A stretch of DNA of 64,000 bases, taken from the NCBI GenBank assembly GCA_036268055.1, contig DATAUW010000041.1, positions 62,001 to 126,000 on the forward strand, read 5' to 3'. The stretch comes from Verrucomicrobiia bacterium (GTDB lineage Bacteria; Verrucomicrobiota; Verrucomicrobiia; Limisphaerales; Pedosphaeraceae). The notes under the pieces were generated by a model. It saw only the letters and a program-made list of their open reading frames with translations. It did no database searches and was not told the origin of the DNA. Below, one piece after another: positions 9,820 to 27,553 of the stretch; position 1 is the first letter of the stretch; each line of letters opens with the position of its first letter. The position numbers and the translations under genes are program-made.

Positions 9820-10548
9820 CTAGTGCGTATGCGCCACGGAATTCGCGTGCCGCCAGGCATGAAGGATATGCTCGATGATGGCATCCACGCCGGGACCGTG
9901 CTTGACCTGCGCAAACACCACCGGGCCATCGCCGCGCATGCGCCGGGCGTCACGGGCCATTACCTCAAGGTCGGCGCCGACCGCCGGGGCGAGGTCGGTT
10001 TTATTGATCACCAGCAAGTCCGCCTGCGTGATTCCAGGGCCGCCTTTGCGGGGAATTTTATCGCCGCCCGCAACATCAATCACGTACACCGTGAAGTCAG
10101 CCAGTTCGCGGCTGAAATGCGCGGCCAGATTATCGCCGCCGGATTCCAGCAGCATTAATTCCGGTTTGAAATGGCGTTGCAGTTCTTCCAGCGCGAGCAG
10201 ATTGGCCGAGATGTCCTCGCGAATCGCGGCGTGCGGACAACCGCCCGTCTCGACGGCGCGAATACGCTCGGCTTCCAACGCCTGATGCCGCACCAAAAAT
10301 TCGCCGTCTTCTTTCGTAAAAATATCATTCGTCACGGCGGCGATATTCATTCGCTCGCGCAATTCCCGGCACAGCGCCAGCATCAACGCCGTCTTGCCAC
10401 TGCCCACCGGGCCGCCAACGCCGACAGTGAAAGCGCGTTGAGCGAAATCTCGCGTCAAAGGTTGTTCGCGTTCACCGAAGCGTCCCGGATGTTCCAGGTG
10501 TTCGTGAGTATGGCCGTCCGGCCCGTGATGATGATGACCTGCGCTCAT
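9820..10548 (-). CDS. ureG: Urease accessory GTPase UreG with His-rich N-terminus
   Basis: 242 residues from the ATG at 10548; an upstream TTG in frame is possible. A P-loop GGPVGSGKT is at residues 45-53, followed by [16 protein letters not shown] and the conserved CPH of [23 protein letters not shown] is the guanine-specificity motif. Residues 5-20 hold eight histidines and the C-terminus ends HANSVAHTH. UreG uses GTP hydrolysis to deliver nickel to apo-urease with UreF and UreD. The His-rich leader probably binds nickel and may compensate for the missing ureE. Last gene of the porin-urt-ure series. Confidence 0.95.
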
Positions 10549-10568
10549 AATGTTATTCGATGCGAAAA

Positions 10569-11291
10569 TCAACTTTGAAACAATCGCGAATAGAGACGGT
10601 CTTGCGCGCCCTGCCAGAGGTCGAGCAATGGTGCTGTCTGGGCGACGTCATCCACAGTGAGCATTTCGCAGTGATCAAGAATTTCCACGGCTGGTGACGC
10701 GCATTGGTGTTGCAACGATTGTGCTTCCATCGGCCCGATGACACCCAATCGCACCGCGCTCGCAGTCAATCCGCGCATATAAGTAAAAAAGAAAAGTTCC
10801 GCCACCGTGCGCCGCCCAATCCCCAAAGCTCGAACCACGCCGCCAAAAACCGGGCTCAAATGAAACGGCTGCCCGGCTGATGCTGATTCGCGAATTTGTT
10901 TCAAATCCGCGCCGCCAAAAATGCGCTCGGCTGATGCCAGCAATGCGCGCCCCTGCAACCGGCTCGCTCGATTGGCGACATGGTTCGTCGTAAAGGAATC
11001 GCACAACAAATCGAGACGCAAAAGTTCCGCCGGCTGGTCGTAAGCGCCCAGCATGAATGGCAGCGAACCCTTTCCAAATTGCCACAAACTGGCCTCGATG
11101 AAACTTCGCAGTTCAGCACGATTGCGCAGTTCGCCGTGCTGCCATGTTGCCTCGAGTCCGCCGGAGTGGGCGAATCCGCCGGTCGGGAAAGCCGAATCCG
11201 CCAGTTGCCAAATCAACCACTGATCGCCGGCGATTTCTGCCTCGCCGCCAGCCTTGGCAAATTCTGATTCTGGTTGTACGCGCGCGAACAC
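10569..11291 (-). CDS. ureF: Urease accessory protein UreF
   Basis: 240 residues, all-helical. Family signature [22 protein letters not shown] lies at about residues 26-47 ([10 protein letters not shown] and FAHSGGLE as key parts), with [19 protein letters not shown] in the middle and [20 protein letters not shown] at the end. UreF bridges UreD and UreG in the nickel-insertion complex and controls the UreG GTPase. The gene starts three bases after the ureC stop and is followed by ureG on the same strand, consistent with one transcript. Confidence 0.93.
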
Positions 11292-11294
11292 AAC

Positions 11295-13010
11295 TTAAAA
11301 AAGATGATAGCGTTGCGCGAGCGGCAGGATTTTTGCCGGTTCGCAAACGAGCGATTCGCCATCCGCAGTCACGGCGTAGGTTTCCGGATCAACCGTGATG
11401 CGCGGCGTGGCGTCATTCCATCTCATGTGGGACTTGCCGAGGTTGCGACAGCCGCGCACGGCCTCAAGGCGTTTCGTCAGACCGTAAGTTGAAACAACTC
11501 CGCGCTCTTTGCTCAATGCGCTGACAAAGCTCACCGAAATCGGCCCCGGCGCGCGGCCAAATGCGCCGAACATCGGCCGCATAAAAACCGGTTGCGGTGT
11601 GGGAATGGAAGCGTTGGGATCGCCCATCTGCGACCACGCGATAACACCGCCTTTGATGACCATTTCCGGCTTCGCGCCAAAAAACGCCGGCTTCCACAAA
11701 ACCAAATCCGCCAATTTGCCAACCTCAACCGATCCGATCAAATGACTCATCCCGTGCGCGATTGCGGGATTAATTGTGTATTTGGAAATATAGCGTTTGA
11801 TGCGCATATTATCATTCGCGCCTTTTTCGCCAGGCAGCGCGCCGCGTTGTTGTTTCATCTTGTCCGCGGTTTGCCACGTCCGCGTGATGACTTCCCCGAT
11901 GCGGCCCATCGCCTGCGAATCCGAACTCATCATGCTAATGGCGCCCAAATCGTGCAGGATGTCTTCCGCCGCGATGGTTTCGCCACGGATGCGGCTTTCC
12001 GCAAACGCCACGTCCTCCGGCAATCCGGGATCAAGATGATGGCACACCATCAACATATCGAGATGCTCGTCAATGGTGTTAACGGTGTACGGCCGCGTTG
12101 GATTCGTCGAACTCGGCAAGACATTCGGCTCGCCGCAAATGCGGATGATGTCCGGTGCGTGCCCGCCGCCCGCGCCCTCGGAATGATACGTGTGAATCGT
12201 GCGGCCTTTGATCGCGGCGATGGTCGCGCCGACGAATCCCGATTCGTTAAGCGTGTCGGTGTGAATCGTGACCTGCACATCGTGTTCGTCCGCGATGCGC
12301 AAGCAACAATCAATCGCGGCGGGCGTCGTCCCCCAGTCTTCGTGCAACTTGAGTCCAATCGCGCCGCCGAGGATTTGTTCCGCGAGACCTTCGGGCATTG
12401 CCGTGTTACCTTTGCCGGTAAAACCAAAATTCAGCGGCAGTTGATCGGTCGCCTGCAACATCATTCGCAAATAACCTGCGCCCGGCGTGCAAGTCGTCGC
12501 GCAGGTTCCCGTCGCGGGTCCGGTGCCGCCGCCCACCATTGTGGTCAATCCCGCCGCGATCGCCTCGAACGCTTGTTGCGGACATATATAATGGATATGC
12601 GTGTCCAATCCTCCCGCGGTCAAAATCATCCCCTCCCCCGCGATCACTTCGGTCGTGACGCCAAAGATCATTCCCGGTGTCACTCCAGCCATGACATCCG
12701 GGTTGCCCGCCTTGCCGATGCCCTTGATCAAACCGTCCTTGATGCCGATGTCCGCCTTGTAAATTCCCGTATGGTCCACCACGATCGCGCACGTTATCAC
12801 GCAATCCAACGCATCGGCCTGTCCCACACCCGCCGCCTGCCCCATGCCTTCGCGCAAAACCTTTCCACCACCGAATTTGCATTCGTCGCCGTAAACGGTG
12901 AAATCCTTTTCCACCTCCAGTTGCAATGAAGTATCGCCGAGCTTCAACCGGTCACCGGTCGTCGGCCCGAACATCTCCGCGTAATGCGAGCGTTGCATTT
13001 TATGAGCCAT
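11295..13010 (-). CDS. ureC: Urease alpha subunit UreC
   Basis: 571 residues, the usual length. Nickel ligands and active-site elements are all visible: the HIH pair in GLDTHIHYI, the carbamylated lysine in GLKLHEDWG, histidines in [11 protein letters not shown] and [14 protein letters not shown], the flap with [20 protein letters not shown], and the aspartate in [12 protein letters not shown]. It hydrolyses urea to ammonia and carbamate in the cytoplasm. Its start overlaps the end of ureAB by 11 bases. Nothing suggests inactivation. Confidence 0.97.
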
Positions 13011-13773
13011 GATTTTCCTCCTGATGCGCGAAGCCGCCGTCTTTTACCCGCGCCATGACCGCCGGCAAATTTTCCGCCGAGACTTTGCCATTGCCAAGAT
13101 TGTTGCCGCCACGAATCACCCGATTGCCCGCAATCTCAACCAAATTAACGGTTTTGGTTTCGCCCGGTTCAAAACGCACCGCCGTTCCTGCAGGAACGTC
13201 CAACCGGCGACCGTAAGCTTTTGCGCGATCAAAGCGAAGCTGCGCGTTCGTCTCGATAAAATGATAATGGCTTCCGACTTGCACCGGACGGTCACCAAGA
13301 TTGGTGACGGACAAAGTGATGCTCACGCGGCCCGCGTTCAGTTCGAGTTCCCCTGGTTGCGGCGTCATCGCGCCCGGCTCGAAATCTGTGACCGCATCCG
13401 CCTTGAAAGTTGAAATATCCGGCACCGGCAGAAAACTTCCATACAACGCCAATTTCAAATCTCCATGCTCCGCAGCGATAGGATGATGCACCGTTACCAG
13501 TTTTGTCCCGTCGGGAAATGTTCCCTCCACCTGCACTTCGCCAATCATCGCAGGCACGCCGGACATCACCTGACGACGGCCTAGAAATTTTCGGCCCAGG
13601 TCCATGAGTTCCGCCACGCTGCGGCCATCGCGAATGAATTCGAGAAGCTGCGTCGCGATCAACGCGACGGCTTCGGGGTAGTTGAGCCGCACGCCGCGCG
13701 CAAGCCGTTTCTGGGCGAGGAAGCCCGCGTTGTGAAGCAGCAGCTTGTCAATTTCTCGAGGCGACAGATGCAT
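13000..13773 (-). CDS. ureAB: Fused urease gamma-beta subunit (UreAB)
   Basis: 257 residues made of two urease subunits joined in one chain. Residues 1-100 match the gamma subunit ([41 protein letters not shown]). After a linker of about 30 residues, the second half matches the beta subunit ([47 protein letters not shown]). Such fusions are known from Helicobacter and some other bacteria. The ureC start overlaps its end. It forms the urease core together with UreC. Confidence 0.93.
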
Positions 13774-13807
13774 TGTGGTAAATGAATTGGGTCTCCGGTT
13801 TCAGCGC

Positions 13808-14740
13808 TCACCATTTTCGCGCCCAGGGATCATCGTGCAAAACGTCACGAAGAAAATCAAGCTGTTGGTGAATCTCCCGCCGGACTTGTTCCACTGCTTC
13901 GCCCGCCAAACGAAGCACCACGCCGCCTTTGATAGCACTCGCGCTGCACAGAAGCGACGCGCGGCGCTCAATGGGCCGCACAGCGATGCGCTCCAGGACT
14001 TGAGCCGCAACCGTATTCAACACTTCGCCAAGAATGACAATCGTCGCGATACAATTCATCCGCCCCATCCGATGTGCACCACCCAGCGGCCCTGGTTCGG
14101 CATCGAGCGACAACGCATCCAAAAAAACGCGCTCGCCGCCGACGAAAATTTCATTGCGACTTTGAAAACGATTGAATACCCAGCGTTCACCACAAGCCGC
14201 GCGCCCCGAGCCAAGCCAATCCACCAATACCAATCCGCTCCCGCGCGCGAGTTGAAATCCCTGGCGTTGGACATAATCAGAATCGGCGAACGCCTGCACC
14301 GCATCCGGCGCCAGCACTAACAGGGAATCTTCCGCGAGGTCTGCGCGAAGTTCATGACCGCACGGGCGATTTTTTGGATTGCGATAAACTTTTGTCGAAG
14401 CCTGCGTGCTCAGGAAGCAGCGTGTTCCCGCGCCGAGTTTCACCGTCAGTTTAGTCTCGTCACCGGCGACCATGCCGCCGCCGAAACTGCTCAGATAGGC
14501 CCACACACTTTCGCCGCGCGGTCTGGGAACGAGAATTTTCAACGGGCTCGACGCGCAAACTGAAGTCGCCGTGCTCATACCCGAAACCATTTGAACCTCG
14601 AGATGGCCAAATCCCTTTTCCACTGGCGATGCGCAGCCGTTTTCGGTCACGCCATTCAAAACGCCAGCCTCGCCAGGCGGGTTGCGAAATAGTTCATGCA
14701 AAGAGGAAACACGCGGGACAGGTTTCGCGACGACTATCAT
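13808..14740 (-). CDS. ureD: Urease accessory protein UreD
   Basis: 310 residues. The ATG at 14740 overlaps the urtE stop (ATGA) and is preferred over the longer frame to 14848, which would run inside urtE. Family features are LVPRPRGESVWAYLSSFGGG-type sequence (around residues 70-90: GGGMVAGDETKLTVKLGAGT, LSTQASTKVYR) and ADSDYVQRQGFQL. UreD binds apo-urease and recruits UreF and UreG for nickel insertion. The overlap with urtE physically joins the transporter and enzyme genes in one transcript. Confidence 0.9.
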   Translation of the reverse strand: MIVVAKPVPRVSSLHELFRNPPGEAGVLNGVTENGCASPVEKGFGHLEVQMVSGMSTATSVCASSPLKILVPRPRGESVWAYLSSFGGGMVAGDETKLTVKLGAGTRCFLSTQASTKVYRNPKNRPCGHELRADLAEDSLLVLAPDAVQAFADSDYVQRQGFQLARGSGLVLVDWLGSGRAACGERWVFNRFQSRNEIFVGGERVFLDALSLDAEPGPLGGAHRMGRMNCIATIVILGEVLNTVAAQVLERIAVRPIERRASLLCSASAIKGGVVLRLAGEAVEQVRREIHQQLDFLRDVLHDDPWARKW

Positions 14741-15456
14741 ACCGTCAAGTATTTCTTCACGATCCCTTCGTTCAAATCCGCAATCGGCCCGCCCGCGACC
14801 ACCGCTCCGCGATCCATCACGTAAAACCGGTCGGCAATTTCGAGGCAAAAATCGAGATATTGTTCGACCAATAAAATACTGATCTTGTCCGTCTTTTTGA
14901 TTTTCACCAGCGTCTCGCCGATCAGGTCAATGATGTTCGGCTGAATACCTTCCGTCGGCTCGTCCAGAATCAGAACTTTGGGGTCCGTCAACAATGCGCG
15001 CGCGATCGCCAGTTGCTGTTGTTGGCCGCCGCTGAGCACTCCGCCTTTGCGTCCCAGCATTTCCTTGAGCACGGGAAAAAGTTCCAGCACGCGTTCCAAC
15101 TGGCCGTTCGCCTGCGTGCCATGCACGACAAGGCTGATCTTTAAATTTTCCCACACTGTCAAATTTGGAAAAATATCGCGTCCCTGCGGCACGTATCCGA
15201 TGCCCTTGCGCGCACGTTCTTCTGACGGCAATCCGCTCAGTGATTCTCCGCAGATGCGGATGTCGCCGCTGACGGGTTTGACCAAGCCAACGATGCATTT
15301 CAGCGTGGTCGTTTTCCCGACACCGTTGCGTCCCATGAACGCCACTAACTGCCCGTCGGGAAGGGTCATGTTCACATCGCGCAAGATTTGCGAGCCGTCG
15401 TACGCCGCGTTGAGATTCGAGATCGCCAGCAACGGCGGTGGTTCCGGCGTGGTCAT
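14737..15456 (-). CDS. urtE: Urea ABC transporter ATP-binding protein UrtE
   Basis: 239 residues, LivF-type ATPase. Walker A GRNGVGKTT at about residues 42-50, Q-loop GYVPQGRDIFPNLTVWENL, signature LSGGQQQQLAIARAL, Walker B LILDEPTEGIQPN, and the switch His region replaced by VEQYLDF, as in this subfamily. With UrtD it powers urea import. Its ATG overlaps the urtD stop and its stop overlaps the ureD start. Confidence 0.94.
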   Translation of the reverse strand: MTTPEPPPLLAISNLNAAYDGSQILRDVNMTLPDGQLVAFMGRNGVGKTTTLKCIVGLVKPVSGDIRICGESLSGLPSEERARKGIGYVPQGRDIFPNLTVWENLKISLVVHGTQANGQLERVLELFPVLKEMLGRKGGVLSGGQQQQLAIARALLTDPKVLILDEPTEGIQPNIIDLIGETLVKIKKTDKISILLVEQYLDFCLEIADRFYVMDRGAVVAGGPIADLNEGIVKKYLTV

Positions 15457-16217
15457 AAATGTTTCTTCTCGTGCTTGCGGCCCAAATAAACATCGAGGAC
15501 GCGTTCGTTGTTTTGCACTTCATCCACGCTGCCTTCGCACAACACATGGCCCTGGTGCAACACCGTGACCTTCCTTCCCAGTTGCCGCACGAAAGTCATG
15601 TCGTGTTCGATGACCACGACGCTGTGCTTGCCTTCGAGCCCGAGCAATAACTCGGCGGTTTTGTGCGTTTCCTCGTCGGTCATACCGGCGGCGGGTTCAT
15701 CCACCAGCAAAAGTTTCGGATCTTGCGCAATCAACATGCCGATCTCCAGCCATTGCTTTTGCCCGTGGCTTAACAATCCCGCTTTCCAATCGGCGCGCTG
15801 GGCCAGGCCAACCGTCTTTAAAACCTCATGGATGCGCGCGCGCTCGTCCTCACTGATGCGATGAAACAACGCGGCAAAAACCCCGCGCGGCCCTTTCAGC
15901 GACAACAGCAAATTTTCAAATACGGTGTGATGGACATACACGGAGGGCGTTTGAAATTTTCTGCCGATGCCAAGGCGGTTGATTTGATATTCGTTGAGCC
16001 GGGTGAGGTCCGTGCTCTTGCCAAATTCGATTTTTCCGCTGTCAGGGCGCGTGCGTCCGGTGATGAGGTCCATCATCGAACTTTTGCCCGCGCCATTGGG
16101 GCCGATGATGATGCGCAACTCGCCATCATCCATGTAAAAATTCAGATCGTTGATCGCCTTGAAACCGTCGAAGGATTTATTCACCCCTTCGAGCATGAGA
16201 ATAAATTTCTTGGACAT
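15453..16217 (-). CDS. urtD: Urea ABC transporter ATP-binding protein UrtD
   Basis: 254 residues from the ATG at 16217 (the longer frame to 16415 runs back into urtC). LivG-type ATPase: Walker A GPNGAGKSS at 39-47, IGRKFQTPSVYVHHTVFENL as the LivG-specific Q-loop region, signature LLSHGQKQWLE, Walker B LLLVDEPAAGM, and VVVIEHDMTFV. Partner of UrtE at the inner membrane. It starts two bases after the urtC stop. Confidence 0.94.
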   Translation of the reverse strand: MSKKFILMLEGVNKSFDGFKAINDLNFYMDDGELRIIIGPNGAGKSSMMDLITGRTRPDSGKIEFGKSTDLTRLNEYQINRLGIGRKFQTPSVYVHHTVFENLLLSLKGPRGVFAALFHRISEDERARIHEVLKTVGLAQRADWKAGLLSHGQKQWLEIGMLIAQDPKLLLVDEPAAGMTDEETHKTAELLLGLEGKHSVVVIEHDMTFVRQLGRKVTVLHQGHVLCEGSVDEVQNNERVLDVYLGRKHEKKHL

Positions 16218-16219
16218 GC

Positions 16220-17362
16220 TTATTTGGTTCCCAGGAGTTGGCTTTTCTCCGCGAGTTCGGCAGCCGCGTTGTCGCGGGCTTTTGCCCGGCGCTGACGCAT
16301 CTGGCGGATTTGCGCGGGAAGCCCCACGATTCCGGCGGGCATGAAAATCGTCACCACAATGAACAAACCGCCAAGGATCAAGAGCCACAAATCCGGGTAG
16401 GCGCGGGTCGCCCAACTTTTGATGACATTCACCACCACCGCGCCGATGACCGGCCCGATCAATGTGCCGCGGCCGCCGATCGAAACCCAGATCACCGCCT
16501 CGATGGATTTGTCCACGCCCATTTCGCTGGGGTTGATGATTCCCACTTGCGGCACATAAAGCATCCCGCCGATTGCCGCGATCAAAGCGCTCACGACAAA
16601 CACGAACAGCTTGTAATTTCCCGCGGCATAGCCACTGAACAGCACGCGATTTTCACTATCGCGAATCGCTTGCTGTACCAGTCCAAATTTTGTCCGGCTC
16701 AGCCATTTGCAAAACCAATAGACCAGCAAAAGTGTCACGCCCGATGCGAAATACAAAATCCGTTGCGTGGAAGCCAGGCGCAAATCATATCCCAGCATGA
16801 ATTTGAAATCGGTGAAGCCATTGTTGCCGCCGAGCAAAAGACTGTTGCGAAAAAATAGCAAACAGGCGGCATAGGTCAGCGCCTGGGTGAGAATCGAAAA
16901 ATAGACCCCGCGAATGCGCGAGCGAAAGGCGAGAAAGCCAAATACCAACGCCAGTACGCCCGGCAAAACCAGTGCCATCAGCACGGCAAATGGGAAACTC
17001 GAAAAAGGCTTCCAGAAGACCGGCAGATTGCTCCAGCCCAGGAACACGAGAAAGTCAGGAATGGGTTTGTGATACTGGCCAAGGTCGCCAATCATGCGCA
17101 TCAGATACATCCCCATCATGTAACCGCCGAGCGTGAAAAAGAGCGCCTGGCCGAGACATAACAAACCCGTGTAACCCCAAAGCAAATCCACGCTGATCGC
17201 CAAAATCGCGTAGCAAAGATATTTGCCATAGACAGTGATCGAAAAATCGGAGACGTGCAGGAAGCTGCTCGCGGGCACGAACGCATTGAGGGATGGCAAG
17301 ATCGCCAGAATATAAATCGCCGCGATGGCGACACCCCACTTTTGATATTTCGATGTTTCCAT
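16220..17362 (-). CDS. urtC: Urea ABC transporter permease UrtC
   Basis: 380 residues from the ATG at 17362; the longer frame to 17455 overlaps urtB. LivM-type permease with about nine hydrophobic helices. Conserved segments are WGYTGLLCLGQALFFTLGGY near residue 60, NNGFTDF near 190, and EAVIWVSIGGRGTLIGPVIG near 305, the EAA-like loop contacting the ATPases. It forms the urea channel with UrtB. A charged tail (RQRRAKARDNAAAELAEK) follows the last helix. Confidence 0.93.
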   Translation of the reverse strand: METSKYQKWGVAIAAIYILAILPSLNAFVPASSFLHVSDFSITVYGKYLCYAILAISVDLLWGYTGLLCLGQALFFTLGGYMMGMYLMRMIGDLGQYHKPIPDFLVFLGWSNLPVFWKPFSSFPFAVLMALVLPGVLALVFGFLAFRSRIRGVYFSILTQALTYAACLLFFRNSLLLGGNNGFTDFKFMLGYDLRLASTQRILYFASGVTLLLVYWFCKWLSRTKFGLVQQAIRDSENRVLFSGYAAGNYKLFVFVVSALIAAIGGMLYVPQVGIINPSEMGVDKSIEAVIWVSIGGRGTLIGPVIGAVVVNVIKSWATRAYPDLWLLILGGLFIVVTIFMPAGIVGLPAQIRQMRQRRAKARDNAAAELAEKSQLLGTK

Positions 17363-17363
17363 T

Positions 17364-19118
17364 TTAATCCAGACTGCGGCTGCGAATTGAGAACAATCCG
17401 CCGGGCTTCCATTGCAGGAACAAGATGATGGTGATAAGCACCACAATCTTCCCACTCACGGGCGAGCCGGTCAGTTGTTGCAACACCTGGTCGGACGTGC
17501 CGATGCCCAGCGCGGCACATACCGTGCCGATGATGCTTCCCACACCGCCGACGACCACCGTCATGAACGCATTGACGATATGGTCCTGCCCCATGCTCGG
17601 TCCGACATTGCCGATTTGTGAAAGGAACGCGCCCGCCAGCCCGGCCAATCCCGATCCAAAAGCAAAGGTCAGCATATTGATGCGACGCGTCCGCACTCCG
17701 AGGCACGCGGCCATGTTGCGATTCTGCATCACCGCGCGAATCAAAAGACCCAGCGGCGTTTTTGTCAGCAGCAGCCAGGTTCCGATAACGATCAGGACTG
17801 CGAAGCCGATGACGAACACGCGATTGTAACCGAAGCTCACGTCATCCACCGTAAAATGGCCGAGCAACCACGACGGCGAATTTACCTGCACATTGTTCGC
17901 GCCAAAAACCATGCGGAAACATTGCTGCATCACCAGCGAAACTCCCCACGTCGCCAGCAATGATTCCAGCGGACGCCGGTAAAGAAATTGAATCACCGCC
18001 CGTTCCACCAGCAAGCCCGCCAGCGCCGCCATGATGAAACTCAAAGGCAGCGCCACCAGGAAATAACTTTCATACGTCGCGCCGGTGGTATTGAGTCCCG
18101 GCAAGTGCATTCCAAATTGGATGGCCTTCCCGGCAAAATTGAACGGCAGCACAATCGTGAAACCAAATCCCGCGCCAAAAAGATTTTGCACCACGTAACA
18201 AGTGTACGCGCCGACCGCGATCATCTCGCCGTGCGCCATATTAATGATGCCCATCAAACCGAACGTGATCGCCAAACCCAGCGCGACCACCAGCAAAATC
18301 GAACCCAGACTGATCCCATGAAAAATGGTGCCGAAGAAATTGACCCAGCCAATGTGGTTCTTGATGGAACCAATCGCCTTGGTTGCCGCCAGCTTCGCTG
18401 CGGGCGGAGTCGTATCCTTCTCGGCAAACTTCTGTAGATTTTCCACTGAACCGATTGACTGAAGTTCCGCCAGATGATTCACCGCAGAAATCTTCACGTC
18501 TGTGTTTGTATCCCCCAACTGGAGCATGGCAATAGCCTCTTCAATGGCCCGGCGCACTTCCGCATTCGTCTCCCTGGTCAGTCTTGCCTGCAAAATCGGG
18601 AGGTATTGCAGCTTCTGTGAGTTGCCGAGTTTGCTCACCGCCGAGTGGCGGACTTCGGGATCTTTGTCGGCAAGCGCGAGCGAATCGAGGGTGCGTTGAA
18701 TCACTTTGCGCAAAGCCATGTCCGTCTCGGCGGCTTCAAGATCGCCGGAACCAAAATGCAACTCCACTCCCTTATCATCCTTCAAAATCTGGCCGTCATC
18801 CACGCGAATGGCGCGCGCCTTGCCCTGGGCGTCCTGTTGGTCCTCCAACTGCACCGGCACCTTTGCGCCGCCCGGCGCGCCATACATATATATTCCATCG
18901 CGCGTCCACGCCGTGAGAACATCGTGCGCCGTCTTCGAGCCGGTATCCACCAGTTCGCTCAACAGCTTTGGCTGGTCTTCCGGTTTCGCGACGATCACCT
19001 CGGCGAGCTTTTTCCTGGCTTCAAGTTCCGTGGCGCTCTCCGCGGCACGCGCCATCCCTGTGCCGGAGAGCAATAGCGCGATCCAAACCATCAATCCAAG
19101 GCGAAAAGTTGAATTCAT
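17364..19118 (-). CDS. urtB: Urea ABC transporter permease UrtB with N-terminal extracytoplasmic domain
   Basis: 584 residues. A signal-like N-terminus (ending ARAAES) is followed by about 230 polar residues with repeated helical pairs resembling HEAT repeats (ADKDPEVRHSAVSKLGNSQ, ETNAEVRRAIEEAIAML). The LivH-type permease domain starts near 270 (FHGISLGSILLVVALGLAIT, GLMGIINMAHGEMIAVGAY). The extra N-terminal domain is usual for UrtB. TVVVGGVGSIIGTVCAALGIG is the cytoplasmic coupling loop. It lies downstream of a terminator-like hairpin that separates it from urtA. Confidence 0.93.
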   Translation of the reverse strand: MNSTFRLGLMVWIALLLSGTGMARAAESATELEARKKLAEVIVAKPEDQPKLLSELVDTGSKTAHDVLTAWTRDGIYMYGAPGGAKVPVQLEDQQDAQGKARAIRVDDGQILKDDKGVELHFGSGDLEAAETDMALRKVIQRTLDSLALADKDPEVRHSAVSKLGNSQKLQYLPILQARLTRETNAEVRRAIEEAIAMLQLGDTNTDVKISAVNHLAELQSIGSVENLQKFAEKDTTPPAAKLAATKAIGSIKNHIGWVNFFGTIFHGISLGSILLVVALGLAITFGLMGIINMAHGEMIAVGAYTCYVVQNLFGAGFGFTIVLPFNFAGKAIQFGMHLPGLNTTGATYESYFLVALPLSFIMAALAGLLVERAVIQFLYRRPLESLLATWGVSLVMQQCFRMVFGANNVQVNSPSWLLGHFTVDDVSFGYNRVFVIGFAVLIVIGTWLLLTKTPLGLLIRAVMQNRNMAACLGVRTRRINMLTFAFGSGLAGLAGAFLSQIGNVGPSMGQDHIVNAFMTVVVGGVGSIIGTVCAALGIGTSDQVLQQLTGSPVSGKIVVLITIILFLQWKPGGLFSIRSRSLD

Positions 19119-19125
19119 ATTTGTG

Positions 19126-19164
19126 AAAAAGGAGGAACGAAGATGGACAACTTCGTTCCTCCTT
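19126..19164 (-). terminator. Hairpin between urtA and urtB (partial terminator / attenuator)
   Basis: A perfect 14-bp stem (AAGGAGGAACGAAG against CTTCGTTCCTCCTT, 8-base loop) is followed on the minus strand by TTTTT just before urtB. Intrinsic terminators between a binding-protein gene and its permease genes often lower expression of the latter. The 5' arm also contains a perfect Shine-Dalgarno-like AAGGAGG that the stem would hide. Confidence 0.75.
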
Positions 19165-19200
19165 GAACTAACTAACTCGGAAACAAGATCAACACGGCCA

Positions 19201-20484
19201 TCATTTCGCGGCTAGCTTTTCGTCCAGGCCTTTCAGCAGGAACGGTTCACCGGTAACTCCGTCAAATGATTTGAGAATCTTGAACTGGCCGTTGGCCTTG
19301 GTTTCACCAATGTAAACATTCTTGGTGGCGTGATGGTTGGCTTGCATCGTGACCGTGCCGCCCGGGCCACCGAAGGAGATCGCACCGGATTCCAGCACTT
19401 CGCGAACTTTGTCCACGTCAGCCGTGCCGGCCTTTTCGACCGCGGCCTTCCAGAGATAAACGCCGTCATAGGAAAGCACCATCGGACTGTCCACCGGGCG
19501 GTTTTCTTTTACGACACCGGCATGGGATTCAGTCGAGAGCCAGTCTTTCCAGTTGCCCAGGAACTTTTTGTTCTCCGGCGTAGGGAGGGACATGAAGTAA
19601 GTCCAGCAACCGAGTTCACCGACCAGGTCTTTGGTCGGCAGCGCGCGGAGTTCGTCTTCCGCCAAGCTGAAGGAGACCACCGGGCAATCCGAAGGCGTCA
19701 AACCAGCGGCGGCAATTTCCTTGAAGAAAGGCACGTTGGAATCACCGTTGATGGTGTTGATCACGCAGGCGTCACCACCGGCGGCGAATTGCTTGATGTC
19801 GGCCACGATCTGCTGATAGTCGGTGTGGCCGAATGGGGTGTATTTGCCAGCAGAGATGACCTTGCCGGAATCATCCTTGCGCAAACCGCCGCCGATGTCC
19901 TCGATCTTGATGCCGTGCAGCAACAGATATTTGTAGAGGATGAGGTTCGTGGTTTGCGGATACACGTAGTCGGTGCCGATCAGGTAGAATCTCTTCTTGC
20001 CCTGCGCAAGCAGATAGTCAACCGCCGGGGTGGCTTGTTGATTCACCGCTTCAGCAGTGTAGAAAATATTCTTGGAAAGCTCTTCACCTTCATACTGCAC
20101 CGGATAGAAGAGCAAGCCATTGTCCTTCTCAAAGACCGGCAGCACGGATTTGCGGCTGACCGAAGTCCAGCAGCCGAAAACCACCGCGACCTTGTCTTCT
20201 TCGAGCAACTGCTTGGCTTTTTCAGCGAACAGCGGCCAGTTCGAGGCGCCGTCCACGATGACCGGCTCGATAGTGTACATCTTGTCGCCGATCTTGATGC
20301 CGCCTTCCTTGTTGATTTCATCAAACGCGAACAACAACACATCGCGCAACGACGTTTCGCTGATGGCCATCGTGCCGCTCAATGAATGGAGAATGCCGAC
20401 CTTGATGGTATCTGCGGCTTGACCGACCGTGGCTGCGAATAAACACGCCGCCCCCGTTACCAGACTAAAGAATTGCTTTTTCAT
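19201..20484 (-). CDS. urtA: Urea ABC transporter substrate-binding protein UrtA
   Basis: 427 residues with a signal peptide ([20 protein letters not shown], cleavage after GQA). The family pattern is clear: [79 protein letters not shown]. UrtA is the periplasmic receptor for urea feeding UrtBC. It is the first of five urt genes, 48 bases after the porin gene, and separated from urtB by a hairpin, so it is probably made in excess over the permease. Confidence 0.95.
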
Positions 20485-20532: not shown

Positions 20533-21903
20533 TTAGAACAGATAAGAAAGGCCGGCGCCGAAGATGACCCGGTTTTGTTTGCCCGGCACGAAGCCTCCCG
20601 AATACGAGGTATGGTCGTAGCGGATTTCCGGCTGGAACTTGATGGCGGGAACCGGAGTGTAGTTGAGCGTGACCGCGACACTGGAAAGGTCCTGGCCAAC
20701 GCCGACCGGGTTCATGAACCCGAGCGCGCCGCCGGAGGCATCCACACCGTCATGATCCGCGAGATATTCCGCGCGCAAGGCGAGGTCGAATTGCTTGGTG
20801 AACGCGTAATCCGTCCAAAGCCCGGCGGAATAAACATCCGAGTGCCCGGCAGCATACGCCGCGGGAGGAGCTGCAAGATGCGGATTATAGAAGTTGAACC
20901 AGTCGAGTTCCGTGCCGAAGGTCCACTGCGGCGTTGGATTCCATCCGGCGAGGATTTCCGCGCCGATGAGATTTTCGGTAAAGCCCGCATCCTCACGACC
21001 GCCGAATACCAAGCCATTGACCCAAAGATTTTTCAAGGGCTTGAGGTCGAGCGCGGCGATGAAACTCTTGGAAGAGTTATTGTCAATAGGTCCGGCATAA
21101 GTGCCGTTTTGCACGCGCAACTTCACATCGGCCCAATCCGTCAGGGTATAGCCGAGTTGAATGCCTTCCGCGGGACCATTGCCGGTGAAGAACCATTGGT
21201 AACCCTGCGAAAAGTTCGCATTCGCCGCGCCGCCATCCCCCGACTCATAATTGAGCAGCGAGATCATTTCACCCGCCCGGAAATTCACGCCGGTGCCGAT
21301 GGGAATGTTCAACTCAACATAGGCTTCGCGAACGGCATTGAAACCAGAATCATTGTTATACGTTCCAGTCGCGCCCCCCGGAGTGGTCGTGACGGTTGAA
21401 TGATTGCCGTTGAAACCGGAATTGACGACGGGCGCGTCCTGGCCGTAGATGAGCGACACGCGAAACGCGGCGTCGAACTTATCGCCGCTGCGCTCAACCG
21501 GTTTGCTGGCGAGCGTCACTTTGATTTTGTTCAACGAAAAGTTGTCGTTGACGCGGTTCCACAGATAACCGGGCGAAACATGGCCCGCCGGTTCGCTGCT
21601 GTCATGAAAGTACGACGTGGTGATGAAGCCGCTGAGGGTGATGTCCGACAGCGCTGCAACGGACGAATTACCGCCCTTGTTGCTGGGCATCCAGCCTTCT
21701 TTTTCCGCGGCCGTTTCGAGCGCATCCAGGCGCGCCTTGAGGTCTTTGTTTTCCTGCGTCAGTTTTTGCATTGACTGGGGATCGGTGGCCGAAGGGTCGG
21801 CGGCCATCGGATCCGCATGCAGCGCGATCGCGCTGCTGACGACCATCCCCATGCACACACCGGCCGTCTTTAACTGCTTGCCAAGTCTAGGTTGTTTTTT
21901 CAT
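20533..21903 (-). CDS. Outer-membrane beta-barrel porin (BBP2/OmpL-like), likely for urea
   Basis: 456 residues from the ATG at 21903. This start lies downstream of the predicted sigma-54 promoter, whereas the longer frame to 21939 would overlap it. A signal peptide ends near LHADP. Residues about 45-70 form a short coiled coil (KLTQENKDLKARLDALE). The rest alternates polar and hydrophobic residues as barrel strands and ends in an aromatic strand with terminal Phe (GAGLSYLF). This pattern matches the beta-barrel-porin-2 group. It is the first gene of the transport operon, so passage of urea or a related small solute across the outer membrane is inferred from context. Confidence 0.8.
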   Translation of the reverse strand: MKKQPRLGKQLKTAGVCMGMVVSSAIALHADPMAADPSATDPQSMQKLTQENKDLKARLDALETAAEKEGWMPSNKGGNSSVAALSDITLSGFITTSYFHDSSEPAGHVSPGYLWNRVNDNFSLNKIKVTLASKPVERSGDKFDAAFRVSLIYGQDAPVVNSGFNGNHSTVTTTPGGATGTYNNDSGFNAVREAYVELNIPIGTGVNFRAGEMISLLNYESGDGGAANANFSQGYQWFFTGNGPAEGIQLGYTLTDWADVKLRVQNGTYAGPIDNNSSKSFIAALDLKPLKNLWVNGLVFGGREDAGFTENLIGAEILAGWNPTPQWTFGTELDWFNFYNPHLAAPPAAYAAGHSDVYSAGLWTDYAFTKQFDLALRAEYLADHDGVDASGGALGFMNPVGVGQDLSSVAVTLNYTPVPAIKFQPEIRYDHTSYSGGFVPGKQNRVIFGAGLSYLF

Positions 21904-21934
21904 CGCGTAGTCAGTTGTTAGGTTGTCCTGTCGT

Positions 21935-21950
21935 TGCATTGTTCGAGCCA
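21935..21950 (-). promoter_or_regulatory. Sigma-54 (-24/-12) promoter for the porin-urt-ure operon
   Basis: On the minus strand, TGGCTCG-AACA-ATGCA matches the consensus TGGCACG-N4-TTGCW at 10 of 12 defined positions, with GG and GC at exact spacing. The -12 GC lies about 33 bases before the porin ATG at 21903. Nitrogen-scavenging operons are classic sigma-54 targets. Confidence 0.6.
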
Positions 21951-21952
21951 GT

Positions 21953-21965
21953 TCACAATCGGTGA
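21953..21965. promoter_or_regulatory. LysR-type box (T-N11-A) between divergent promoters
   Basis: TCAC-AATCG-GTGA is a dyad with the exact T-N11-A spacing typical of LysR-family binding sites. It lies between the two -24 elements at 21935-21950 and 21969-21984 and next to a LysR gene. Confidence 0.5.
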
Positions 21966-21968
21966 GCT

Positions 21969-21984
21969 TGGCTTGACAGTTGCT
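21969..21984 (+). promoter_or_regulatory. Sigma-54-like (-24/-12) promoter toward the lysR gene
   Basis: TGGCTTG-ACAG-TTGCT matches the sigma-54 consensus at 10 of 12 positions with correct GG-GC spacing. It faces the lysR gene, whose ATG is at 22112, which gives a leader of somewhat over 100 bases. Confidence 0.5.
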
Positions 21985-22111
21985 TGTATTGGGTCACCAC
22001 GGCGTTTGGCCTCTGGTTGATCAAGTTGTTTTCGGAAAAAGCAACTCAGATACCGATTGGGCGAATTGTTCCGTGAAATATTTTAACGACCGCCTTGAAT
22101 CGCATTCACAC

Positions 22112-23062
22112 ATGGATGAACCACTAGATAGCAGGCAGCTAAGAGCGTTTGTCGTCCTCGCGGAAACCGGCAGTTATACCGAGACCGCCCGCCGTCTTTT
22201 TGTCACGCACTCAGCCATCAGCCACGCGATGCGCGCACTGGAGAGCACGGTGGGGTGTCGCCTTTTGAACAACCTGAATAAAAAGGTCATGCTCACGGAC
22301 GCCGGCGAGGCGCTACTTCAACATGCACAGCAGGTTTTGGAGGAAATGCGCCGCGCGAAAACAAATCTCAACGCGCTCAACAAATGGGGCTCGCGCCGTT
22401 TGCGCATCTCCGCCGAAGCACCGCTGGCAGGTTATTTTCTCAACGATGTGCTCGTGGAATTTCATCACAAATTTCCCAACGTCATGGTCAGCGTGGAATT
22501 GCACAACCGTTGTGATGCTTATGCTTTTCTCACGGCGAACCGCACCGACCTGGTATTTGCCGAAAAGCCGCCGGTGGATGGGCGCTTTGAATTTTGCCCG
22601 CTGTTCTCCGACACGTTTCACGTGGTCATGGGCCCACAACATCCCTGGGCGGTCAAAAAATCCGTGACGCTTTCAGAATTTCCCAAAGCGCCGTTCATCC
22701 TTCATCGCAACCTCGCGCGCTCCCAAAAAATGCTGGCGGACTACCTGGAAAAATCGGGTTTCCAACTCAACACCGTGGCGGAGATGGACAGTCTGGATTC
22801 AATCAAGGATTTCGTGCGCCAAACCCGCGCGATCAGCATCCTCCCGACGTGGGCAATCGAGTGCGAATTACGGGACGGAATATTGGTGGCGCTCCCATTG
22901 GGCCGCCGGTCATTTGAACAAACCTGGGGATTCACCCGTTGGACCGAGCGCGCACTGACTCATAGCGAGTCCGGCTTCGTCCATATTTGCCGAACGGTTC
23001 TGATGGAAACCGCCGCGAAAATAAAACTTAAATCCACTACGTTTCCAACCATGCAGGCCTGA
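22112..23062 (+). CDS. LysR-family transcriptional regulator
   Basis: 316 residues from the ATG at 22112; the longer frame to 21980 would overlap the regulatory spacer. The winged HTH covers residues 5-65 (SRQLRAFVVLAETGSYTETA, FVTHSAISHAMRALE). A linker helix and a periplasmic-binding-like effector domain (residues 90-300) follow. It diverges from the porin-urt-ure operon across a 208-base spacer with a T-N11-A box, so it most likely regulates that operon and itself. The effector is unknown; nitrogen status or a urea-related compound is plausible by context. Confidence 0.9.
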   Translation: MDEPLDSRQLRAFVVLAETGSYTETARRLFVTHSAISHAMRALESTVGCRLLNNLNKKVMLTDAGEALLQHAQQVLEEMRRAKTNLNALNKWGSRRLRISAEAPLAGYFLNDVLVEFHHKFPNVMVSVELHNRCDAYAFLTANRTDLVFAEKPPVDGRFEFCPLFSDTFHVVMGPQHPWAVKKSVTLSEFPKAPFILHRNLARSQKMLADYLEKSGFQLNTVAEMDSLDSIKDFVRQTRAISILPTWAIECELRDGILVALPLGRRSFEQTWGFTRWTERALTHSESGFVHICRTVLMETAAKIKLKSTTFPTMQA

Positions 23063-23303: not shown

Positions 23304-26300
23304 ATGAAACAAGGCTCCCCGGGAGAACCTGGCCACACAAAATCGAAAAGCCGTCTGTTGATCGTCATCTTCACGATCGCCGCGACGCTGCTGGTGCTCA
23401 GCATGGTCGTGGTTTTCCGGGCTGGGCATATCGCGATCCTGGCCCAGGACCGGATGAACAGCCAACTTGAGGCGGTCAGCGAATTACAGGAATGGTTGTC
23501 CACGGTCAAGGATGCCGAAACCGGCCAGCGCGGTTATTTGCTCACGGGCGAGGAAAGTTATTTGCAGCCGTACACCGATGCGCTGCAAAAACTGAAAACC
23601 GATTCCGTCGCGCTGGAAAATCTGGTTTCCGCCGGACAATTATCCCGGGAGGATGTGGCGCGAACCGCTGGTTTGGTCCAGGAAAAAATCAACGAACTGG
23701 CAGAGACCATTCGCTTGCGAAATGAAAAAGATCTGGCGCAGGCATTGTTGGTCGTGCGGAGCGATCACGGCAAAATAACGATGGACCAAATCCGGATGAA
23801 CATTCAGGCGTTGCTTAAGACCGCGCGGGAAAATTATAATGAGGCCACCCAGGAGGCCGACCGCATCAGCTTCTGGCGTTCGGCGACTTTTTTCATCGTG
23901 ACCATCGTCAACCTCGCGTTTCTGACCTGGGCTTTTCAAACCATCCGGCGCCAGGAATGGCTGCAATTTGGCCGGATGCAATTAGGTGAGAAATTATCCG
24001 GCGATCCGCAACTCCACGATTTGACGGCGAAGGCGCTGACGTTTTTGGCGGAGTATTTGGGCGCGCAGTCGGGTGTGCTTTATGTGGATGACGGCGGGGC
24101 TTTTCGGCGTTCGGCGGTTTACGCTTTGCCTGACCCGCAGAAAGTCCCGGAAAAATTTTCACCCGGAGAAGGTTTGCCGGGACAAGCCGTGCGGGACAAG
24201 CGGTCGTTCGTCGTGCGGGCGCTTCCCGAAGGATACATCAACGTCGGGTCAGCGTTGGGAAAGAGCGCGCCGCGCCAGATCATCATCGCGCCGATTCGCG
24301 TGGAGGAATCCGTCAATGCGGTGGTCGAACTGGGCTTTCTCGATTCGGTTCCCGGCGCGGCGCTGGAGTTTCTCGACGATATCAGCGAGCCCACAAGTGT
24401 GGCGCTACGCTCGGCGCAATATCGCACCCGCTTGCAGGAATTATTGGAAGAGACGCAGCGCCAATCCGAAGAACTTCAGTCTCAGAGCGAGGAACTTCGC
24501 GTGTCCAATGAGGAACTTGCCGAGCAGGGCCGCGCTTTAAAGGAATCCCAAGTGCGGCTTGAACAGCAACAAGCCGAACTCGAGCAATCCAATTCACAAT
24601 TGGAGGAGCAAACACAAATTCTTGAAGGACAGAAGGACGATCTGTCTCGCGCGAAAATCGAACTTGAAAATCAAGCCGCCGTGGTCGAGCAGGCGAGCCG
24701 TTACAAATCGGATTTCCTCGCCAATATGTCCCATGAATTGCGCACGCCGCTCAATTCCTCGCTCATCCTCGCCAAACTCCTCGCCGATAATCGCGAGGGA
24801 AATCTGTCCGCCGAACAGATCAAATATGCGCAGACGATCCAGTCCGCGGGCAACGACCTGCTGACGCTCATCAATGACATCCTGGACCTCGCCAAGGTCG
24901 AGGCGGGGCGACTCGATTTGAAGCCGGAGGCATTTCTGCTGCCCAGCCTCGTCGAAAGCTTGAATGGATTATTTGACCCGGTCGCCGAAGGCAAGGGTTT
25001 GAAATTGCGCATGACGCTCGCGCCGGACGCGCCGCAGACGCTCGAAACCGACCGCAAGCGGCTTGAGCAAGTCCTCAAAAATCTTTTATCCAACGCCATC
25101 AAATTTACTGAGAAAGGCGAAGTGAGCCTTAACATCAGCCGCAAGCCGGGCGGCATCGCGTTTGCGGTGCAGGACACGGGCATCGGAATCGCCGAGCAGC
25201 ATCAGAAAATTATTTTTGAGCCCTTCCGCCAGGCGGATCCGGCGACCGACCGCAAGTACGGCGGCACCGGCCTGGGACTCTCGATCTCGCGTGAACTGGT
25301 CCGGTTGATGGGCGGGACCATCACGGTCACCAGCGAACTCGGGCGCGGGAGCGTGTTCATCGTCGTGCTGCCCGAGGTTTATAAACCCGCAAAATTTCTC
25401 ACGCCAAAGTCCGCCCAGGACATCAATCCGCTCAGACATGAGGCCGCGCCCGCCTCGCCTCCATCGGCGCCGCAGCCCGCATTGAAACATGTGCCGCGCG
25501 TGCCGGATGACCGCGAACGATTGACCGCGGATTCCCGGATGATCCTGCTCGTCGAAGACGATGCTTTATTCGCCGGAATCCTCGCCGACCTGGCGCACGA
25601 ACTGGATTTTCAAGTCCTCATCGCGCAAAGCGCCGAGGAATCCCTGGTGCTCGCGCGGCAATTCCAGCCGAGCGCCATCATCCTCGACATCGGCTTGCCG
25701 GATAATTCCGGCATGTTCGTTTTGGAACGGCTTAAGGGAGATTCGCGCACACGGCACATTCCAGTGCATGTCGTTTCGGGAAATGATTATTCGGAACCGG
25801 CGCTCGCCATGGGCGCGGTCGGCTACATGCTCAAGCCCGTCAAACGCGAGCAACTGGTCGAGGCGTTTCATAAATTGGAATTTCGCCTCACCCAGCGGTT
25901 GCGCCGGGTGCTGGTCGTCGAGGATGACAAGGTGCAACTCGACAGCTTGAAACGCCTCCTCGGTTCGCGCGATGTCGAAACCGTCGGCGTGCGCACGGCG
26001 GCGGAATGCCTCGAAAATTTGAAGTCGTCCACCTTCGATTGCATGGTGCTCGATTTGAGTTTGCCGGACGCGTCGGGTTTTTCGCTCCTTGAGACGTTGA
26101 GCGCGGAGGAGGCTTATTCTTTTCCGCCGGTGATCATTTATACCGGGCGCGATTTGAGCGCCGACGAAGAACAGCGGCTGAGAAAATATTCCAAATCCAT
26201 CATCATCAAAGGCGCCAAATCTCCCGAGCGGTTGCTGGATGAAGTCACGCTCTTCCTTCACCAGATCGTCTCCAGCCTGCCGGCGGAAAAACAGCAGATG

Positions 26301-26720
26301 CTGGAAAAAGCTCGCCATCGCGATGCCGCCTTTGAGGATAAATGCATCCTCATCGCCGAGGATGACGTGCGAAATATTTTCGCGCTCACTTCCTTGCTCG
26401 AGCCCAAGGGCGTGAGGACGCGCATCGCGCGAAACGGCCGCGAGGCGTTGCGCGAATTGGAAGCGGCCGGCAAAGATCCTTCGAAACGCGTGGATCTCGT
26501 GCTCATGGACATCATGATGCCGGAGATGAACGGGCTCGACGCCATGCGCGCGATCCGAAAAAATTCCGAGTGGCAGCGGCTACCCATCATCGCCCTGACC
26601 GCCAAGGCGATGAAAAACGACCAGGAGCAATGCATCCAGGCCGGTGCAAACGATTATCTCGCCAAGCCGCTCGACGTGGACAAACTCCTCTCGCTGATTC
26701 GAGTCTGGATGCCGAGATGA
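23304..26720 (+). CDS. Hybrid sensor histidine kinase: CHASE3, GAF, HisKA, HATPase, three REC domains
   Basis: 1,138 residues. TM1 at about 17-40; a CHASE3 sensor at 45-185 (TVKDAETGQRGYLLTGEESYL); TM2 at about 193-212; GAF at about 225-375; then about 100 residues of coiled coil rich in EELQSQSEEL-type heptads. The kinase core has H477 in MSHELRTP, an N-box NLLSNAIKF, DTGIGIAEQH and GGTGLGLSIS. Three receiver domains follow: about 735-855 (VEDD, ILDIGLP, LKPV), 870-985 (VEDD, VLDLSLP, IKGAK) and 1012-1138 (AEDD, LMDIMMP, LAKPLD). The stop overlaps the cheR start (ATGA). It acts at the inner membrane in a multi-step phosphorelay; the signal is unknown. Confidence 0.93.
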   Translation: MKQGSPGEPGHTKSKSRLLIVIFTIAATLLVLSMVVVFRAGHIAILAQDRMNSQLEAVSELQEWLSTVKDAETGQRGYLLTGEESYLQPYTDALQKLKTDSVALENLVSAGQLSREDVARTAGLVQEKINELAETIRLRNEKDLAQALLVVRSDHGKITMDQIRMNIQALLKTARENYNEATQEADRISFWRSATFFIVTIVNLAFLTWAFQTIRRQEWLQFGRMQLGEKLSGDPQLHDLTAKALTFLAEYLGAQSGVLYVDDGGAFRRSAVYALPDPQKVPEKFSPGEGLPGQAVRDKRSFVVRALPEGYINVGSALGKSAPRQIIIAPIRVEESVNAVVELGFLDSVPGAALEFLDDISEPTSVALRSAQYRTRLQELLEETQRQSEELQSQSEELRVSNEELAEQGRALKESQVRLEQQQAELEQSNSQLEEQTQILEGQKDDLSRAKIELENQAAVVEQASRYKSDFLANMSHELRTPLNSSLILAKLLADNREGNLSAEQIKYAQTIQSAGNDLLTLINDILDLAKVEAGRLDLKPEAFLLPSLVESLNGLFDPVAEGKGLKLRMTLAPDAPQTLETDRKRLEQVLKNLLSNAIKFTEKGEVSLNISRKPGGIAFAVQDTGIGIAEQHQKIIFEPFRQADPATDRKYGGTGLGLSISRELVRLMGGTITVTSELGRGSVFIVVLPEVYKPAKFLTPKSAQDINPLRHEAAPASPPSAPQPALKHVPRVPDDRERLTADSRMILLVEDDALFAGILADLAHELDFQVLIAQSAEESLVLARQFQPSAIILDIGLPDNSGMFVLERLKGDSRTRHIPVHVVSGNDYSEPALAMGAVGYMLKPVKREQLVEAFHKLEFRLTQRLRRVLVVEDDKVQLDSLKRLLGSRDVETVGVRTAAECLENLKSSTFDCMVLDLSLPDASGFSLLETLSAEEAYSFPPVIIYTGRDLSADEEQRLRKYSKSIIIKGAKSPERLLDEVTLFLHQIVSSLPAEKQQMLEKARHRDAAFEDKCILIAEDDVRNIFALTSLLEPKGVRTRIARNGREALRELEAAGKDPSKRVDLVLMDIMMPEMNGLDAMRAIRKNSEWQRLPIIALTAKAMKNDQEQCIQAGANDYLAKPLDVDKLLSLIRVWMPR

Positions 26721-27553
26721 AAACCTCCGCCGTCGAAACTGAAGAGATTGAGTTGCGTCTTTTGCTGGAGGCAATCTTTCAGAAATACCACTACGACTTC
26801 CGTGGTTATTCGACAGCGTCACTCAAGCGGCGGCTGGCGCAAGCCCTGGACCGGCTCGAGTGCAAAAGTTTTTCGCAGCTTCAGGACCGGGTGTTGCACG
26901 ACGATTCCCTGCTGCCCTACCTGATCGGTTTTTTAACCGTGCAGGTGAGTGAGATGTTTCGCGACCCTTCCTATTTTCTTTGTTTGCGGCGGAACGTCCT
27001 GCCGCATTTGAAAACCTATCCGTCATTAAAAGTGTGGGTGGCCGGCTGCTGCACCGGCGAAGAATTATATTCGATGGTGATCCTTTTTCGTGAAGAAGGA
27101 TTGGAGAATCGCACGATATTTTATGCCACGGACATCAATACGCATTCGCTGGAAAAAGCCAAGGCGGGCGTGTATGAACTGGATCGCATCGCCCTCTTCA
27201 CAAAAAACCATCATGAGTCCGGCAGCAAAGTCTCCTTGTCCAACTATTACACTGCGGCTTACGGCGCGGCGAGGTTCGACAAGAGTTTGCGCGAGCGGGC
27301 CGTGTTCTCGGACCACAGCCTCGTTTCGGACGCCGTGTTCGCCGAAGCGCAACTTATCTCCTGCCGGAACGTATTGATTTATTTCAATCGCGACTTGCAA
27401 AACCGCGCGCTGGGGCTTTTTAAAGATTCACTCGTGCGCAAGGGTTTTTTAGGATTGGGTTCGCGCGAGAGCCTGCGTTTTTCTTCTCATACGGCGGATT
27501 TTTCCGATTTTGCACGAAATGAACGCATTTATCAGAAGGAGGAAAGCAAGTGA
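26717..27553 (+). CDS. cheR: CheR-type protein-glutamate methyltransferase
   Basis: 278 residues from the ATG at 26717, which overlaps the upstream stop (ATGA); the longer frame to 26570 lies inside the kinase gene. The N-terminal helical domain (RLLLEAIFQKYHYDFRGYS) precedes the SAM-binding motif VAGCCTGEELYSM (usual AGCSTGEEPYS), then FYATDINTHSLEKAKAGVY and ISCRNVLIYF, all CheR hallmarks. It would methylate glutamates using SAM. No chemoreceptor gene is nearby, so the target may be the coiled coil of the hybrid kinase, an inference from context. Confidence 0.9.
   Translation: MKTSAVETEEIELRLLLEAIFQKYHYDFRGYSTASLKRRLAQALDRLECKSFSQLQDRVLHDDSLLPYLIGFLTVQVSEMFRDPSYFLCLRRNVLPHLKTYPSLKVWVAGCCTGEELYSMVILFREEGLENRTIFYATDINTHSLEKAKAGVYELDRIALFTKNHHESGSKVSLSNYYTAAYGAARFDKSLRERAVFSDHSLVSDAVFAEAQLISCRNVLIYFNRDLQNRALGLFKDSLVRKGFLGLGSRESLRFSSHTADFSDFARNERIYQKEESK

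Follow-up and report, generated by a model that had tools for sequence, protein, structure and literature searches.

The window analysed here, a stretch of 64,000 nucleotides from a Verrucomicrobiia genome (5.1 Mb, 41 contigs), carries genes for urea uptake and urea splitting on one strand and a divergent gene for a LysR-type regulator on the other. This arrangement raises the question from which promoters the two units are read and where the regulator might act. The genes concerned are the following:

9820..20484, minus strand, urtABCDE and urease block, recognized by Pfam matches and lists of open reading frames
9820-10572, minus strand, ureG
10569-11291, minus strand, ureF
11295-13010, minus strand, ureC
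13000-13773, minus strand, ureAB
13808-14848, putative ureD frame, ureD by position alone
14737-15456, minus strand, urtE
15453-16415, minus strand, urtD (open frame)
16220-17455, minus strand, urtC (open frame)
17364-19118, minus strand, urtB
19201-20484, minus strand, urtA
20533..21903, minus strand, porin gene (BBP2), Pfam PF07642 at 7.7e-43
22112..23062, plus strand, lysR gene, LysR-type regulator of 316 amino acids, Pfam HTH_1 at 8.8e-19 and LysR_substrate at 2.9e-35

The names urtA to urtE and ureG were assigned from gene order and family. Inferred from gene order and strand, the porin and urea genes form one unit, and the porin gene was taken as the first gene of the urea operon. Both the HTH_1 and the LysR_substrate domain are present in the lysR product, and the starts of the porin gene at 21903 and of lysR at 22112, as given in a preliminary description of this DNA, were confirmed in the open reading frame data. 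The UrtB-like permease at 17364-19118 carries N-terminal HEAT repeats (Pfam). Adjoining lysR, positions 23304-29733 encode a large hybrid kinase and a CheR protein (Pfam), followed by what look, judged by the frames alone, like a CheB-like protein, a kinase and a response regulator.

The gap between the porin gene and lysR comprises 208 bases and holds all the elements discussed below:

21935..21950, minus strand, sigma-54-like site of the preliminary description, TGGCTCGAACAATGCA, that is TGGCTCG-N4-ATGCA, 10/12 consensus positions, conserved neither in position nor in sequence
21953..21965, no strand, dyad of the preliminary description, TCACAATCGGTGA, that is TCAC-N5-GTGA
21969..21984, plus strand, site A, predicted sigma-54-type promoter of lysR, TGGCTTGACAGTTGCT, that is TGGCTTG-N4-TTGCT, 10/12 consensus positions
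22040..22055, minus strand, site B, proposed promoter of the porin-urt-ure genes, CGGTATCTGAGTTGCT, GG-N10-GC kept, 8/12 consensus positions
22096..22108, no strand, proposed LysR box, TGAATCGCATTCA, TGAA-N5-TTCA, a perfect 4-N5-4 dyad of the T-N11-A type just before the lysR start codon

The preliminary description had proposed that the minus-strand site at 21935..21950 and site A are back-to-back sigma-54 promoters of the urea operon and of lysR, with the TCAC-N5-GTGA dyad between them as the LysR box. Both sites are real, as each matches 10 of 12 consensus positions with exact GG-N10-GC spacing; they lie 18 bases apart with the dyad between them. When the gap was shuffled 4000 times with its dinucleotides preserved, 29 shuffles had a site of at least 10 on the plus strand alone, 18 had one on the minus strand alone and none had one on both strands, a result to be read with the fact that the two-site pattern was picked after the sequence had been seen. 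The presence of two sites of 10/12 in this gap is not trivial, yet conservation is the better test.

Relatives of the LysR protein were matched in 146 of the 320 genomes of the order (E 1e-60); apart from the window's own, no genome of its genus turned up in the searches for relatives. In a phylum sample, at least 3 of 387 genomes gave a match at 1e-62, the window's own among them; this is a lower bound, as scoring was confined to part of the first-look candidates in each genome. The analysis covered 114 loci, a subset of all matches, and 111 of these had 400 bases upstream of lysR; L022 was left out of the set and taken as identical to L016. A quick tree with midpoint root separated 16 urea-type LysR genes from 98 others. 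We call the latter nitrate-type on two grounds: the neighbours of the copy in this genome include an NMT1_2 (NrtA-like) gene, a formate/nitrite transporter gene and one for a nitrate-type ABC ATPase, the last slightly below its curated cut-off, and 66 of the 98 loci have a divergent NrtA-like gene (32 are without, some having short flanks). All loci are related, and the locus counts given below are therefore not independent. Across the 111 loci, sites of at least 9 numbered 92 on the plus strand, 59 of them exactly at -55, and 59 on the minus strand, 42 of them at -67/-68; over both strands, dinucleotide shuffles gave 28.7 +/- 4.8 and reversed sequence gave 19.

All but one (L024) of the 16 urea-type loci have site A with a score of at least 8, and its position in these 15 ranges from -140 to -157 relative to the ATG. 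Over 400 shuffles, the same scan yielded a mean of 0.32 and a maximum of 3. With its GG-N10-GC core in TGGCAC/TTGC surroundings (10/12) and its conserved position, site A has the sequence features of a sigma-54 promoter, and at this level that half of the preliminary proposal is supported. On the minus strand the conserved element is site B, which the preliminary description had overlooked. Thirteen of the 16 loci have it with a score of at least 8; its usual place is -67 to -69, and it lies at -57 in the window and in L023, the closest relative by LysR identity (shuffles: mean 0.21, maximum 2). Site B shares the GG-N10-GC core and surroundings and is conserved in position; it is weak in the window (8/12) and scores as high as 10/12 in relatives. 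Furthermore, it tracks the divergent gene: it is present in 12/12 loci with a divergent porin or urtA and in 1/4 without, the exception being L061, with L014, L017 and L049 lacking it. Site A is kept in all four of these loci. In L024, L036, L049 and L061, a urtA match lies downstream of lysR, beginning about 907 bases past the start of that gene, and L024 and L036 additionally carry a divergent porin.

Pairwise alignments of the gap complement the scan. Identity to the gap of L023 is 60%, with 15/16 bases kept in each of sites A and B and 11/13 in the box at 22096-22108. The alignment with L020 keeps 11 bases of A, 15 of B and 4 of the minus-strand site at 21935..21950, and that with L015 keeps 13, 11 and 8, respectively. 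The sites were not separated in L016 (A 6, B 5, minus site 7) and L027 (A 7, B 9, minus site 9); as the site scan detects both A and B there, we think that the aligner puts the two out of register in these loci, where the distances to the ATG differ.

A and B face each other. Counting 26 bases from the first T of each site, RNA starts are predicted at about 21995 for A and about 22029 for B, and from these coordinates the predicted transcripts overlap by 35 bases. The T-to-T spacing in the 12 loci with both sites is 77-78 in four, 82 in one and 86-89 in seven. Conservation thus suggests that the putative promoters of the urea operon and of lysR are arranged face to face rather than back to back.

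Back-to-back pairs do exist in the sister clade. In nitrate-type loci, a plus-strand site of at least 8 lies at about -55 in 82 of 98 cases, the best scoring 12/12, and site B at this threshold is present in 49/98 and absent from 49/98; 46/98 have both. The commonest places, -55 and -67, put the two sites back to back with 11 bases between them, and two genomes of the same class from outside the order keep such a pair next to a divergent nrtA-like gene, one at -55/-67 and the other at -58/-70. The layout claimed in the preliminary description occurs in nitrate-type loci and is not supported at the urea locus. The nitrate-type clade agrees more weakly on the tracking of the divergent gene by B: at a threshold of 9, B was found in 33/66 loci with a divergent nrtA-like gene versus 6/32 without (Fisher p 0.004, kinship uncorrected), and the other 33 of the 66 lack it, a point against the reading of B as the promoter of the divergent gene. 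Short hairpins directly ahead of the nrtA-like gene, close to where transcription from B is predicted to begin, were seen in L117, L120, L086, L093, L118 and others. They occurred in part of the 33 nitrate-type loci folded and are not general; perhaps they represent a leader element.

A LysR-type box is likewise conserved, at another place than proposed. The motif TGAA-N5-TTCA with 7-8 of 8 arm bases lies at -16 in 15/16 urea-type and 67/98 nitrate-type loci, and at offsets from -30 to -199 it never exceeded 4/113 loci. A looser count gave 85/114 loci within -40 to -1 compared with 0/114 in the control stretch. This conserved T-N11-A dyad close to lysR is likely the LysR-binding box. It lies about 73 bases upstream of the predicted B start. 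The TCAC-N5-GTGA dyad, present as described, keeps 4/13 bases in L023, which does not support it as the LysR box.

The machinery for sigma-54-dependent transcription is encoded in this genome. The preliminary description had made its proposal depend on rpoN; rpoN is present here, as it is in 292 of the 320 genomes of the order, together with AAA+ activators, and that objection falls away. Nine strong Sigma54_activat matches (at least 220 bits) and two weak ones were found; as this model also gives matches in each of the 14 control genomes, weight is given to the strong ones alone and the two weak ones mean nothing. It had also been pointed out that LysR control combined with sigma-54 is uncommon because sigma-54 normally needs an AAA+ activator. 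With nine such proteins available, the LysR protein need not take over that role. All nine were scanned and none reaches the NCBIfam ntrC cut-off of 558.6 bits (TIGR01818), the nearest being C6:24682 with 502.6 bits.

The glnK-amt operon is a classic target of NtrC and sigma-54, and the motif TGGCA-N7-TGCT precedes glnK (P-II) at all three glnK-amt loci of this genome, with four sites scoring 9-10 before four P-II genes. One of these loci, L159 (G000:C13:159900-162000), has a tandem pair of P-II (glnK) genes, each with its own sigma-54-like site. When up to 650 bases at amt were searched in 30 relatives, a plus-strand site of at least 10 was present in 12 and absent from 18, and a minus-strand site was present in none. 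Simple scans of the gap and the glnK upstream regions for NtrC-type inverted repeats revealed no shared activator-binding site; the sole match falls inside a sigma-54 site upstream of glnK. Some sigma-54 promoters function without upstream activator-binding sites. Genome-wide, the pattern TGGCNNGNNNNNTGCW gave 119 matches versus 83 for its reverse, so that the bare pattern is weakly enriched and proves little.

Taken together, the genes for urea uptake and splitting and their lysR gene are most likely both switched on from predicted sigma-54 promoters upon nitrogen starvation. The best explanation, to which we assign a probability of about 0.7, is a pair of face-to-face sigma-54 promoters in which a LysR box precedes the one for the urea operon. 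Here, we infer that A and B act as promoters, A yielding lysR mRNA from about 21995 and B yielding porin-urtABCDE-urease mRNA from about 22029. Both would be opened when nitrogen is limiting by an AAA+ activator, probably one of the NtrC kind, as at the glnK-amt operons. Each polymerase would cross the opposite promoter, and the first 35 bases of both transcripts would be complementary, so that the two directions should compete. LysR would bind TGAA-N5-TTCA within the lysR leader, a position that suits negative autoregulation; the placement of the box relative to the B start would suit tuning of the urea operon, perhaps with urea or a product as the putative ligand. At the level of sequence, the core of the preliminary description, namely sigma-54-type sites for both lysR and the divergent porin-urea operon plus a LysR-type box, is supported. 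A bolder version, which we regard as rather unlikely, is that LysR acts directly with the sigma-54 polymerase at B, that the substrate thereby gates an AAA+-dependent promoter and that the facing promoters are mutually exclusive. It draws on the nearly fixed distance from the box (-16) to B (-67 to -69), from which the window and L023 deviate by having B ten bases, about one helical turn, closer to the box.

One point against the face-to-face arrangement is that B in the window is weaker (8/12) than the minus-strand site at 21950-21935. In this strain the latter might serve as the porin promoter, back to back with A, as originally proposed. It would give a short leader of about 21 bases, and its 10/12 matches, exact spacing and rarity in the 4000 shuffles (18 with an equally good minus-strand site) are in its favour. 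We nevertheless consider this unlikely. Only 5/16 of its bases are kept in L023, and among the 16 urea-type loci the window alone has a minus-strand site of 10 at -215 to -140, the other 15 showing sites of 8 in two cases (L020 and L016) and none in 13. Alignment and clade scan show neither this site nor the dyad at 21953-21965 to be conserved, and it is B that tracks the divergent gene. The minus-strand half of the preliminary description was probably misplaced; the site may have been gained in the window's lineage alone.

The weakness of B in the window also leaves room for the view that A is the sigma-54 promoter of lysR, and that B has a regulatory role with the urea operon read from another promoter. 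LysR activators mostly act with sigma-70, which would fit. This reading is improbable given that B reaches 10/12 in relatives and is present in every urea-type locus with a divergent gene. A consensus scan of 21880-22130 found no sigma-70-like site, which is no evidence because the scan covered one promoter type and only 0.2 matches were expected by chance.

A reading of A and B as places where LysR or another regulator binds, instead of promoters, is very improbable. In its favour, GG-N10-GC also fits a GGCA-N7-TGC half-dyad near the size of a LysR-type dyad, and the 8-base inverted arms AGTTGCTT and AAGCAACT common to A and B were recovered by a repeat finder, which reported only two other inverted pairs. 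Against it, the ends TGGC and TGCT do not form a reverse-complementary pair, and a perfect dyad distinct from A and B is conserved at -16. Loci without a divergent gene keep A in 4/4 and B in 1/4 cases, and the motif also precedes glnK, where no LysR match was obtained in the stretches of this genome even at E 10.

The locus offers a sequence-level view of nitrogen control within an order of the Verrucomicrobiota that has received little study. One LysR family splits into a urea-type and a nitrate-type clade, both of which have sigma-54-type sites, and the layout switches between face to face and back to back; the clades form a natural series for testing how regulation by LysR and by sigma-54 is combined in one stretch of DNA. 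Among the matches listed in literature searches of titles and abstract openings, with subscription papers mostly beyond reach, none reported that sigma-54 controls urea genes or LysR genes in this order, and nothing was listed on the sigma-54 promoter of AtzR. A sigma-54 regulon survey (PMC12316311) reports, for Pseudomonadota, urease genes and genes for the transport of nitrate and ammonium, so that sigma-54 control of such genes is already known; its main text gave no match for 'lysr', 'nac' or 'urta'. We conclude that the region is real and conserved, and that it is predicted to exert a known kind of control in a new arrangement.

Several known systems invite comparison. In the atzR-atzDEF region of Pseudomonas sp. 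ADP, a LysR gene and an operon for nitrogen scavenging are transcribed divergently; the promoter of atzR itself depends on sigma-54 and NtrC, and the target operon atzDEF uses sigma-70. The window resembles it, as judged from the DNA alone, in that a sigma-54-type site precedes its LysR gene and a nitrogen operon runs divergently from that gene. It differs in that sigma-54 is predicted on both sides with the sites facing each other, and in that the operon is porin-urt-urease and resides in Verrucomicrobiota. Nac of Klebsiella and E. coli is a LysR regulator of nitrogen genes that is made from a sigma-54 promoter and bridges in trans to sigma-70 operons, urease being among its targets. The window likewise has a putative LysR regulator of nitrogen genes with a predicted sigma-54 promoter; in contrast to Nac, its lysR adjoins the likely target, which bears a sigma-54-type site of its own. 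The Nac model was absent among the 25 of 56 NCBIfam matches listed, all 25 of which were below cut-off. Nac is named together with NtrC and sigma-54 in PMC9397018. Finally, the sites in the window share the TGGCA-N7-TGCT motif with the glnK-amt sigma-54 promoters of the same genome, whereas those promoters stand without a described face-to-face partner and without a LysR match in the stretch.
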